A DNA stretch of 64,000 bases, taken from contig JAHBVV010000030.1 in the NCBI GenBank assembly GCA_019637335.1, positions 1-64,000 of the forward strand. The letters are read 5' to 3'. Under the pieces are notes generated by a model, which saw nothing but the letters and a program-made list of their open reading frames with translations, ran no database searches and was not told the DNA's origin. The stretch comes from Candidatus Hydrogenedentota bacterium. GTDB lineage: Bacteria; Hydrogenedentota; Hydrogenedentia; Hydrogenedentales; JAEUWI01. Position numbers and translations under genes: made by a program. Shown here piece after piece: positions 55,591-60,233 of the stretch. Positions within the stretch are counted from its first letter, which is position 1; each line of letters starts with the position of its first letter.

Positions 55591-55621
55591 CCCGTAACCG
55601 GTGCAAAAGGAGAATCCGCTC

Positions 55622-56710
55622 ATGAAGAATCTGGTGTTGATTCTGTCGATCGTACTGGCGGCATTCGCACCCGCCCAGGATGCACTGCCCGATCTCGTGC
55701 ACGGCGAAGTGCAGTTCGAAACCGGGCGCTACGGCGGCTGGCCGGCCAACGGCGGGATCTGGAATTGGGGCGACGAGATCGTAACCGTCTTCACCCTGGG
55801 GTACTACCGCGCGGACACCCGCGGCATGCATCCCATCGACCGGGAACGTCCCCGGGGCAAAATGCAGGCGCGCAGCACGGACGGCGGCGTGACCTGGTCC
55901 CTCGAAACGCCCACGTTCGTAACCAGCGATGGCGGCGACAAGCCGGTCTCCACGCTGGAAGCCGCGATGGATTTCAGCCACCCCGATTTCGCGCTGATGT
56001 TTATCACCGACAAGTTCGTCTATTCCACGGATCGTTGCAAGACGTGGCAGGGGCCCTTCGAACTCCCGAAATTCGGCCGCCCGGGCCTGCTCGCCCGCAC
56101 GGACTACATCGTCAACGGACCGAAGGATCTCCTGGCCTTCATGGCCACGCAGAAGGACGATCAGGACGAGGGCTGGGTGGCGGCCATCCGCACGCGCGAC
56201 GGTGGGCTCACCTGGACGCTCGAAGGCCTGGTGGGGGATCAGCCGAAGAAGGATGAATACTCGATCATGCCGTCGACGGTGCGCCTGAAGGACAACGCCC
56301 TGTTCTCCTGGATCCGGCATTGCCGCGTGCTGGGCGACGGCAGCGAGGTGCGCTTTGTGGACGCCTGGCGCTCGCCGGACGACGGCCAAACCTGGGAGCA
56401 TCTGGCCCACCACCGGATCGACAATGCCGGCAACCCGCCGCATATGATCCGCCTGGCGGATGGCCGCCTGGCCGTGACCTACGGTGTGCGCAGCGAGCCG
56501 CTGGGCATTCGCGGCCGCATCAGCAGCGACGAAGGCGTCACCTGGGGCGACGAATTCATCATCCGCGGCGATGGCGGCGGTCGTGATCTGGGCTATCCCC
56601 GCACTGTACAGCGCGCGGACGGCAAGTGCGTGACGGTCTATTACTTCAACGACGGGAAACGCCCGGAACGCTTCATCGCCTATACGATCTGGACGCCGCC
56701 CGCGCCCTGA
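55622..56710 (+). CDS. Secreted sialidase-like beta-propeller protein, copy 1
   Basis: 362 residues. Signal peptide MKNLVLILSIVLAAFAPAQ. Four Asp-boxes mark propeller blades: STDGGVTWSL near residue 90, TRDGGLTWTL near 195, SPDDGQTWEH near 250 and SSDEGVTWGD near 302. The FRIP-type Arg motif of classical sialidases was not seen. Likely a glycoside hydrolase of the exo-alpha-sialidase superfamily in the periplasm or outside the cell; the substrate need not be sialic acid. The next gene is a clear tandem duplicate. Confidence 0.85.
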   Translation: MKNLVLILSIVLAAFAPAQDALPDLVHGEVQFETGRYGGWPANGGIWNWGDEIVTVFTLGYYRADTRGMHPIDRERPRGKMQARSTDGGVTWSLETPTFVTSDGGDKPVSTLEAAMDFSHPDFALMFITDKFVYSTDRCKTWQGPFELPKFGRPGLLARTDYIVNGPKDLLAFMATQKDDQDEGWVAAIRTRDGGLTWTLEGLVGDQPKKDEYSIMPSTVRLKDNALFSWIRHCRVLGDGSEVRFVDAWRSPDDGQTWEHLAHHRIDNAGNPPHMIRLADGRLAVTYGVRSEPLGIRGRISSDEGVTWGDEFIIRGDGGGRDLGYPRTVQRADGKCVTVYYFNDGKRPERFIAYTIWTPPAP

Positions 56711-56756
56711 AAACACCGTTTTCACTAAACCACCAGCGAGGAAAGGAGTGAGAGTC

Positions 56757-57842
56757 ATGCGATTGTTGCTTGTATCGGCCATCATCATGCTTGCCGGGGC
56801 CGCCGCGGCCCAGGAGCAGCTGCCCGGCGTGCAAAACGGGGAAGTGCAGTTCGGCGAGGGCCGCTTCGGCGGCTGGCCCGCCAATGGCGGCATCTGGAAT
56901 TGGGGCGACGAGATTGTCACGGTCTTCACGCTCGGTTACTTCGACCCCGAAAGCCGATCGGGCCACCCCATCAAGCGCGACATGCCCTCGGGCAAGATGC
57001 AGGCGCGCAGCCTGGACGGCGGCGTCACCTGGACGCTTGAAACGCCGAGCTTCATCGTCAACGAAACCGAGGAGCGCCCACTGAGCAAGCTGGCCGAGCC
57101 CATGGACTTCAGCAATCCCGATTTCGCGCTGATGTTTCTCTATACCCGCTTCCTCTACTCCAACGATCGCTGCAAGACCTGGCACGGCCCCTTCGAACTG
57201 CCCACCTTCGGCCGTCCGGGGCTCCTCGCGCGCACGGACTACATCATAAACGGTCCCAGCGACGTGCTGGCGTTCATGGCCACGGAAAAGGACGACGGCA
57301 AGGAAGGCTGGCCCGCCGCCATCCGCACGCGCGACGGCGGCCTCACGTGGACCCTGGAAGGTATGGTCGGACATCAGCCCGCCGAGAATGAATACTCCAT
57401 CATGCCGTCCACCCTGCGCCTGAAAAACGGCGCGCTGTACTCCTGGATACGCCACCGCCGTATCGTGGACGGCGACCGCATCTGGTTCATCGACGCCTGG
57501 CTCTCGCCCGACGACGGCAAGGCCTGGTACAAGCTGGACAATACTTTCACCAACAACGCCGGCAACCCGCCCCACATGCTCCGGCTCGCCGACGGGCGCC
57601 TGGCCGTGACCTACGGCCACCGCCTGCCCCCCTACGGCATCCGCGGGAAGATCAGCGGTGACGAAGGCCAGACCTGGGGCGAGGAGTTCATCATCCGAGC
57701 GGATGGCGGCGGCTGGGACATCGGCTACCCCCGCACCGTCCAGCGCCCCGACGGCAAATGCGTCACAGTCTACTACTTCCACGACGGCGAACGCCCCGAG
57801 CGCTTCATCGCCTACAGCATCTGGGCCCCGCCGGCGGAGTGA
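56757..57842 (+). CDS. Secreted sialidase-like beta-propeller protein, copy 2
   Basis: 361 residues from ATG 56757, with AAAGGAG 7 nt upstream; a GTG at 56748 overlaps that site. Signal peptide MRLLLVSAIIMLAGAAAAQ. It aligns along its whole length with copy 1 (RFGGWPANGGIWNWGDEIVT against RYGGWPANGGIWNWGDEIVT). Three Asp-boxes are intact, while the third blade reads SPDDGKAWYK with Thr changed to Ala. The divergence between the copies is spread evenly, so this looks like an older tandem duplication with possible change in specificity. Confidence 0.85.
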   Translation: MRLLLVSAIIMLAGAAAAQEQLPGVQNGEVQFGEGRFGGWPANGGIWNWGDEIVTVFTLGYFDPESRSGHPIKRDMPSGKMQARSLDGGVTWTLETPSFIVNETEERPLSKLAEPMDFSNPDFALMFLYTRFLYSNDRCKTWHGPFELPTFGRPGLLARTDYIINGPSDVLAFMATEKDDGKEGWPAAIRTRDGGLTWTLEGMVGHQPAENEYSIMPSTLRLKNGALYSWIRHRRIVDGDRIWFIDAWLSPDDGKAWYKLDNTFTNNAGNPPHMLRLADGRLAVTYGHRLPPYGIRGKISGDEGQTWGEEFIIRADGGGWDIGYPRTVQRPDGKCVTVYYFHDGERPERFIAYSIWAPPAE

Positions 57843-58029: not shown

Positions 58030-59223
58030 GTGATCAATGAAACGGCGCTCAGAAAGCTGCTCGCGGAACTGGAGTCTGATCGCGTAGAGCGGACGATGTC
58101 AACGCGGGACACAGACAAATTCTGTGAGGCGATTTGCGCCTTCGCCAATGACATGGCGGGAACGCGATCGCCCGGCTACCTGATTCTTGGCGCAAGAGAC
58201 AGCGATGGAGGCATCGTTGGCGTTGATGTATCGGACGACCTGCTAAAGCAACTCTCCAACTACGCCGATTCGGGGCAAATCGTGCCCTTCCCGGCCGTAT
58301 CGGTCTGCAAAATGGCGCTGCCGGAAGGCGCGATCGCCATCGTGGAAGTCCTGCCATCCGACATGCCTCCTGTTCGCTATCGGGGCCGCGTTTGGATTCG
58401 GCGTGGCCCGCGGAAGGCCATTGCGAATGAACAGGAGGAGCGGATTCTCTCCGAACGTCGCGTGCACCACGCGAGAACCTTTGATCTGAGGCCCTGCGCC
58501 GGATGCGGCCCTGAAGATCTCGCGCTTGATCTCTTTCAACTCACCTACCGGAATATGGCTATCGCGCCCGATCTGATCGCCGAGAACAATCGCGACATGT
58601 TTCTTCAGATGGCCTCGCTTGGCTTCTGGAACTCGGATCAGGCGTGTGCGACCAATGCCGGCGCGCTCCTGTTCGCATTGGATCCGCTCAATTGGTTTCC
58701 CGGCGCCATAGTTCAATTCGTCCGTTTCGGCGGGCCGGATCCCAATTCCAATGTTTTGGACGAACGCCGCTTTGATGGCGATCTGATCAGTGTTCTTCGC
58801 GAGTTGGACAGCTTCCTCAAAGTGCTGTTTCCCTCGCGCCCCGAGTTTGAATCGCCGTTGAGGGAACGTAGCCGAACCCCGTACCCCGTGCTGGCGATCC
58901 GGGAGTTATTGCTCAACGCCATAATGCACCGCGACTACGCTTCAAACGCCCGGATCCGCTTCTACTGGTTCAGCGATCACATTGAGATACAGAATCCAGG
59001 CGGGCTCTATGGAAGCGTGACGCCGGAGACGTTTCCGCTTCAAAGCGACTACCGCAATCCGAAGATTGCTGAGGCGCTTAAGACACTGGGCTATGTCAAC
59101 ACCTTTGGAATGGGAATCGCCCGCGCCCAAAGGGCCTTGAACGAGAACGGCAATCCGCCCGCGGAGTTCGATATCAGCCAGAGCACCTTCTTTCTTGTAA
59201 CCATCAAGGAGCGGGAGGGATGA
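58030..59223 (+). CDS. AlbA_2/Schlafen-type DNA-binding protein with GHKL ATPase-like domain
   Basis: 397 residues from GTG 58030. The N-terminal 130 residues form a Schlafen AlbA_2 domain: ESDRVERTMSTRDTDKFCEA, ICAFANDMAGTRSPGYLILG (family-typical) and VRYRGRVWIRRGPRKAIANE. From about residue 275 the RecG-associated GHKL-type ATPase C-domain follows: LAIRELLLNAIMHRDYASNA (the N-box with Glu and Asn), HIEIQNPGGLYG (G1-type) and MGIARAQRAL (G2-type). It may bind nucleic acid and ATP. The stop overlaps the parA start by 4 nt, so the two are translationally coupled. Base composition is less GC-rich than neighbouring genes, hinting at transfer. Confidence 0.85.
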   Translation: MINETALRKLLAELESDRVERTMSTRDTDKFCEAICAFANDMAGTRSPGYLILGARDSDGGIVGVDVSDDLLKQLSNYADSGQIVPFPAVSVCKMALPEGAIAIVEVLPSDMPPVRYRGRVWIRRGPRKAIANEQEERILSERRVHHARTFDLRPCAGCGPEDLALDLFQLTYRNMAIAPDLIAENNRDMFLQMASLGFWNSDQACATNAGALLFALDPLNWFPGAIVQFVRFGGPDPNSNVLDERRFDGDLISVLRELDSFLKVLFPSRPEFESPLRERSRTPYPVLAIRELLLNAIMHRDYASNARIRFYWFSDHIEIQNPGGLYGSVTPETFPLQSDYRNPKIAEALKTLGYVNTFGMGIARAQRALNENGNPPAEFDISQSTFFLVTIKEREG

Positions 59224-60233
59224 GGACGATCGCGTTTTTCAACAATAAGGGCGGTGTGGGAAAAACGTCGCTCGTTTATCATGTCTCCAACATGTGTGCC
59301 GAACTAGGCGCGTGCGTGCTTGTTGCGGATCTCGATCCTCAGTCCAACCTTACGGCGATGTTTCTGGATGAACTGGAACTGGAAGAAATCTGGCCGGATG
59401 AAGGGGGGGGCGCGAGTGTTCTTGCCTGTATCAGGCCAATTATTGAGGGGCTGGGTGATATCGGTGACGCGCCGCTACGAAAAGTCGCTCCCGGGTTACA
59501 TCTCCTGCCTGGTGATCTTGGTCTCTCCAGATTTGAGGATCGGCTTTCCGAAAGCTGGCCGAAATGCCTGGATGGCGACATCGCCGCATTTCGCGTTACC
59601 ACGGCGTTTTACCGAATACTCCACGCCGCCGCGCGCGAGTCAGAGGCGGATATTGTGTTAATCGATATCGGCCCCAATCTCGGGGCGATCAATCGCTCCG
59701 CGTTGATTGCCGCGGACCACGTAGTAATGCCGCTTACTCCGGGGCTTTTCTCGCTGCAGGGACTGCGGAATCTCGGGCCTACCCTGCATGACTGGCGGGT
59801 AGGCTGGAAGAAGCGCCTGGAAGCCGTGCCCGACGCCTTGTCGATACCCATGCCTTCCGGAGCAATGCGGCCCGCCGGCTACGTTATCATGCAGCACGTG
59901 GAGCGCCGAAATCGCCCCGTGAAGGCGTATCAGCGGTGGATTTCACAGATACCGGGCGTTTACAGGTCCGAAGTTCTTCGTGACAAAACCTCGGTCGCGA
60001 TCAGCGATCCCGACCCCAATTGTGTCGGGTATATCAAGAATTACCAGAGCCTGATGCCGCTCGCCGAGGACGCCCGCAAACCGATATTCCGCCTGACGCC
60101 CGCGGACGGCGCCATTGGAGCCCATGCGGCCGCGGTATCGAAGTGCTATCTCGATTTTGGGCGGCTGGCCCGCGATATCCTGGGCAAGTGTAGCGAGCAT
60201 GCGCCCGACGAGAACCCGGCGGGGGCCGTATAG
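59220..60233 (+). CDS. ParA-family ATPase
   Basis: 337 residues; ATG overlaps the preceding stop (ATGA). Deviant Walker A FFNNKGGVGKTSLVYHVSN (signature Lys plus GKT), Walker A' DLDPQSNLTAMFLD and Walker B VLIDIGPNLGAINRSALIAA, then MPLTPGLFSLQGLRNLGPTL. The C-terminal half is longer than chromosomal ParA or Soj and ends with RKPIFRLTPADGAIGAHAAA, as in a conserved subfamily that I recall being paired with AlbA_2 proteins. There is no parB or parS-like repeat nearby, so it is unlikely to be a standard partition system. Defence or regulation of mobile DNA is a hypothesis. Confidence 0.88.
   Translation: MRTIAFFNNKGGVGKTSLVYHVSNMCAELGACVLVADLDPQSNLTAMFLDELELEEIWPDEGGGASVLACIRPIIEGLGDIGDAPLRKVAPGLHLLPGDLGLSRFEDRLSESWPKCLDGDIAAFRVTTAFYRILHAAARESEADIVLIDIGPNLGAINRSALIAADHVVMPLTPGLFSLQGLRNLGPTLHDWRVGWKKRLEAVPDALSIPMPSGAMRPAGYVIMQHVERRNRPVKAYQRWISQIPGVYRSEVLRDKTSVAISDPDPNCVGYIKNYQSLMPLAEDARKPIFRLTPADGAIGAHAAAVSKCYLDFGRLARDILGKCSEHAPDENPAGAV

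Follow-up and report, generated by a model that had tools for sequence, protein, structure and literature searches.

The locus at positions 58030 to 60233 of the window, the whole 64,000-nt stretch of DNA that was analysed, raises the question of what a Schlafen-type protein and a long ParA ATPase do together when they are encoded by overlapping genes. Gene A (58030 to 59223, forward strand, GTG start) encodes a 397-aa protein with a Schlafen AlbA_2 domain and a GHKL-type ATPase domain (HATPase_c_4). Gene B (59220 to 60233, forward strand, ATG start) encodes a 337-aa ParA-family ATPase, and its start overlaps the stop of A by 4 nt (ATGA, 59220 to 59223, forward strand). The open reading frames and the Pfam matches agree with the first-pass annotation, which had described this arrangement and proposed a mobile, undescribed system with a possible role in defence. 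Because the pairing is fixed over at least 19 phyla and the genes sometimes sit inside known antiviral operons, the pair is a good candidate for a two-part antiviral defence, and it is probably a defence or conflict module.

The AlbA_2 domain of A (SLFN_AlbA_2, PF04326; residues 15-130, positions 58072 to 58419, forward strand) has an E-value of 2.7e-13 and a score of 50.9 bits against a curated cut-off of 25.3. The HATPase_c_4 match (residues 307-391, positions 58948 to 59202, forward strand) has an E-value of 3.7e-17, and the N-box with E292 and N296 lies just upstream in codons 292-303. Residues E15, E20, N40, D41, N296, H300, R301, G360 and G362 are invariant across 74 homologues of A, with N40-D41 replacing N-T-x-G-G, which is presumably the usual motif of the family. 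The Schlafen carboxylates are E15, E20 and D57. D57 is kept in 64 of the 74 homologues and lost in 10, and the AlbA_2 domain is also found in non-nuclease regulators; both points count against reading A as an RNase effector. The triad has the spacing of E205/E210/D248 in SLFN13, a mapping that rests on spacing and not on superposition, and mutation of those SLFN13 residues abolishes or diminishes tRNA cleavage (PMC5862951).

Three linked sites divide the A homologues into the subtypes T22/E292/N357 (54 rows, including that of the window) and K22/Q292/Q357 (20 rows), with one row mixed. Since the second subtype is without the general-base (catalytic) glutamate of GHKL ATPases, ATP binding rather than hydrolysis may matter in it. 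The predicted model of A is confident (mean pLDDT 92) and its Foldseek matches are 3LMM (DIP2311, full-length, E 2.3e-20) and Schlafen RNases. No C-terminal wHTH is found in A; the protein ends at residue 397, just past HATPase_c_4, and the model has no further domain. Gene A is the sole AlbA_2 protein found in the source genome.

Gene B matches AAA_31 with an E-value of 2.6e-27 and is ParA-like along its whole length. Its ATPase motifs are intact, including Walker A (K10, K15), Walker A' (D37) and Walker B (D149), and in the alignment of homologues K10 is kept in 76 of 77 sequences, K15 in 73 and D37, D39 and D149 in all 77. The deviant Walker A that had been singled out earlier is therefore present, but it is no oddity, since KGGVGKT is the ordinary motif in all ParA/MinD proteins. 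The predicted model is confident (mean pLDDT 91) and its Foldseek matches are ParA proteins, with 3PG5 (DIP2308) the best and Soj also among them. ParA ATPases are classically known as machines for DNA segregation and for positioning. The 7.16-Mb source genome has two ordinary ParA-ParB pairs elsewhere, so gene B is not its segregation ParA. A search of this genome for ParB_N gave two occurrences, both on other contigs and each adjoining its own ParA, and none near the pair, which bears out the earlier remark that B is without a ParB partner. No centromere-type repeat array was found near the pair.

In the window, the upstream neighbours of the pair are two BNR-repeat proteins (Pfam) and the downstream neighbour is a protein without a Pfam family; no Hma operon was found at this locus. 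The BNR-repeat proteins (55601-57842) are adjacent, sialidase-like and clearly related, which is a tandem duplication. The GC contents of A and B are 57.7% and 59.0%, compared with 64.6% for the window, and GC3 is 67-69% in the pair versus 84-87% in the two genes upstream. The claim that the pair is less GC-rich than its neighbours thus holds against the window and the upstream genes but not against the next gene downstream (GC 55%). Since that gene is lower still, the low GC of the pair says little and is weak evidence for recent transfer. Downstream, 4 kb from the pair and just outside the window (G000:C30:64404-64529; L005:4404-4526), intergenic DNA holds a 118-nt remnant of B with 88% nucleotide identity, which is read as the trace of a lost second copy.

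The coupling of A with B is strict. With B alone as the query, genomes sampled at one per species gave 227 relatives, and in all of the best 80, which were fetched, an A sequence lies directly upstream of B; most of these A sequences are complete, and a few are truncated or damaged. Among the 70 pairs with both genes complete, the overlap is exactly 4 nt in 67, 1 nt in two and 29 nt in one. The earlier statement that distant bacteria carry relatives of both proteins as neighbours is fully supported by these counts. The distance matrix of A is correlated with that of B (rho 0.48, with 0.18 the highest value in 1000 permutations), and median identity among homologues is 49% for A and 59% for B. 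Within the order of the window, all full-length A homologues above 40% identity adjoin B, and A relatives at about 30% identity have longer reading frames of 503-544 aa and no B beside them. No conserved promoter or operator element was seen upstream of A among the nearest relatives. Partial second copies of A directly follow B in three loci (L011:7138-7389, L056:2902-3384 and L069:7392-7589), and these A-B-A' remnants suggest past tandem duplication or replacement via recombination.

The pair is not bound to phylum. The 77-row tree of B carries the labels of at least 19 phyla, some of which come from MAGs and may be wrong, the single archaeal row being a 5.7-kb contig. The tree needs 33 changes of phylum label, where the minimum is 18 and shuffled labels give 41.5, and the nearest rows to the window's B are a deltaproteobacterium, a Sumerlaeota and Planctomycetes. 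Within the same order B is patchy and not core, being present in 6 of 60 genomes, and a genome of another family has 72% B identity, above two genomes of the same genus (68% and 64%). Neither of the genomic patterns named beforehand as refuting the proposal, a lack of joint conservation or a core distribution, is thus seen. The proposal of a mobile functional unit therefore stands for a conserved unit that is patchy and crosses phyla, but not for mobility by way of integrases or plasmids. No close pair is present in 72,556 plasmids or in 50,697 records of named phages, so the pair was rejected as mobile plasmid or phage cargo. One intact pair (L096), adjoining a DNA methylase, occurs among 2.9 million viral contigs, and most copies are in ordinary chromosomal operons.

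The link to known immunity is with Hma, a type-1 BREX-related defence operon made up of the helicase HmaA, the methylase HmaB and the ATPase HmaC. In five of the best 80 of 227 relatives (L023, L039, L058, L064 and L074) the pair lies -4 to 22 nt after HmaA and before HmaB. Three further loci are in or beside Hma remnants or BR-type relatives; pieces of HmaA lie upstream of the pair in L056 and L069, and the pair in L072 is flanked by a DUF1156 methylase and an HKD helicase. HmaB occurs in 20 places in 50 pair-carrying genomes, most of which have no match to it, and 5 of these places are within 5 kb of the pair, compared with about 0.04 expected (20 x 10 kb / 4.7 Mb). Since the eight Hma-linked rows are scattered on the B tree and need 7 changes, the association has been gained or retained more than once. 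HsdR (type I restriction) is not enriched: of about 78, one lies within 10 kb of the pair, where 0.3 would be expected. The one close case lies 37 nt downstream of the pair in L034. The expected enrichment near defence genes is thus seen for Hma but not for type I restriction genes, and a role as a general defence-island gene was rejected. Because the tally of immediate neighbours (PADLOC and Pfam) lacks a matched control and PADLOC models match too freely, only the Hma result, verified for each gene in turn, is relied on here. Large neighbours suspected as defence genes in L061 and L025 were identified as metH and DUF4175.

About 70 of these 80 pairs adjoin no recognised defence gene. Neighbours are mostly co-directional (55 of 67 upstream, 51 of 64 downstream) and about half of the pairs are no more than 60 nt from an upstream gene on the same strand. 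The pair follows gyrA in ten loci of Gallionella/Nitrosomonadales, and others adjoin uvrA, uvrB, alaS or cytidylate kinase (cmk). The post-gyrA pairs (L031, L033, L051, L054, L059, L062, L068, L073, L078 and probably L067) are a few nt from gyrA, mostly before serC, and are apparently co-transcribed with gyrase. The many pairs in such housekeeping operons are among the strongest doubts about a defence role, and the high conservation of A and B is unusual for an arms-race gene. The same placement and conservation would suit a chromosomal regulatory or stress module with no defence role, in which A is an ATP-dependent nucleic-acid-binding regulator positioned on the nucleoid by the ParA, and adjusts expression of its host operon or acts in DNA topology or repair. 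This reading seems rather unlikely, however, as the host operons vary by lineage, the pair is patchy in one order, the embedding in Hma is repeated and the RNase-type acids of A are kept.

A selfish module of the toxin-antitoxin type, with A as a toxic RNase that B restrains and with no specific phage trigger, would account for the strict coupling and stoichiometry, the small stand-alone unit, the patchy spread and the decayed partial copies nearby. Addiction modules are common on plasmids, but no close pairs are found there; in addition, the effector gene precedes the regulator gene, and the regulator B is a large ATPase, which makes this explanation quite improbable. Instead of being an independent system, the pair could assist or regulate Hma/BREX-related systems. 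The eight Hma-linked loci among the best 80 favour this, as do the 1017 or more taxa in which Schlafen-minimal kinase-wHTH proteins are linked to BREX/BR (PMC12839542), but no Hma is near about 90% of the pairs and a HmaB match is absent from most of the sampled pair genomes, so a dependent role is held to be slightly more improbable still. A role in DNA partition, in which A would be an atypical centromere-binding protein, would fit the fold and the ATPase motifs of B. This was rejected as very improbable, since neither a ParB nor a centromere accompanies the pair and separate ParAB pairs are present in the genome; the pair is also chromosomal and patchy, with no close pair on plasmids and no conserved upstream element among the nearest relatives.

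The best reading as a whole, to which about an even chance is given, is that a Schlafen RNase effector is restrained or set off by a ParA ATP switch in a response against viruses or foreign DNA. A and B would form one two-component system at fixed stoichiometry. A would be the effector, with a predicted three-carboxylate RNase site in its AlbA_2 domain and a GHKL domain that binds ATP. B would be a ParA-type ATP-dependent dimer switch, probably nucleic-acid-binding, that holds or triggers A and fills the role of the C-terminal wHTH found in solo relatives of A. Invasion by phage or other foreign DNA would release or assemble the complex, and active A may then cut tRNA or other RNA, so that translation stops. 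The coupled gene pairing, the preserved catalytic motifs, the patchy distribution and the recurrent presence in Hma operons are observed; the complex, the RNase activity, the trigger and the antiviral outcome are deduced from them. On the wider view, the pair may belong to a new two-component immunity class in which a former partition ParA ATPase is the sensor switch and the effectors are a Schlafen RNase here and a SIR2 NADase in a prophage family; this is a tentative proposal and less likely to hold than the switch-and-effector reading of the pair itself.

No model in PADLOC 2.0.0 or NCBIfam describes the pair, and no Schlafen-ParA defence pair was found in the literature search, in agreement with the initial suggestion of an undescribed system. 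In PADLOC, A matches argonaute-labelled models via shared domains and B matches PDC-M28B at residues 2-43 only. The Hma-embedded candidates (HECs; cited in PMC12111858 and PMC12988326) resemble the pair in lying between Hma genes, as it does in five loci; in the comparison made through PADLOC 2.0.0, the pair has no full-length match to the embedded-candidate models. The Schlafen-GHKL-wHTH proteins (HATPase_c_4/COG2865 type; 3LMM, which is DIP2311; BREX/BR-linked, PMC12839542) share with A the order AlbA_2 then HATPase_c_4, but solo relatives of this type are at least 500 aa, whereas A is about 395 aa, has no wHTH and always has B alongside. A solo relative of A (48%) on a viral contig, beside a tyrosine recombinase (L111), carries a wHTH at its C-terminus and is without a ParA, like the BREX/BR-linked Schlafens (PMC12839542), and B therefore seems to replace the wHTH in the A-B pair. 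The long ParA DIP2308 (3PG5) matches B in sequence over its full length (E 7e-45) and is its best structural match, but has about 25% identity and is uncharacterised. DIP2308 and DIP2311, the best structural matches of B and A, come from one bacterium with locus numbers three apart, and these entry names hint that a similar A-B-like pairing may exist there.

Long ParA proteins like B (about 31% identity) also occur with a SIR2 gene in prophage loci (L097:4787-6645, L098:6001-7859, L099:1-1856 and L100:1-1852) and in a plasmid locus (L088:4001-5889). The prophage copies of these ParA-SIR2_2 pairs are beside integrases. They share with A-B a long ParA gene that in most has a 4-nt overlap with an effector gene of defence type, but there the ParA gene is first and the effector is SIR2 (ThsA-like), whereas here the Schlafen effector gene is first; they are possibly a second undescribed ParA-effector pair. 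GiPD474, a ParA-like Gifsy prophage protein, alone protects against phage (PMC12724215) and is likened to B, by description, as a ParA-type ATPase in phage resistance, although it is a single gene with an extra unknown domain. Taken together, the solo relative in L111, the ParA-SIR2 pairs and GiPD474 suggest by analogy that ParA could be a switch with exchangeable effectors. If so, ParA-Schlafen in at least 19 phyla and ParA-SIR2 in prophages would be cases of ParA recruited anew for immune switching. The vertebrate Schlafen RNases, SLFN13 among them, have the three acids at the same spacing as A, but are without a GHKL domain or a ParA, and A has a single AlbA_2 domain. If the proposed reading is true, the animal Schlafen antiviral RNases would be linked to a widespread bacterial module.
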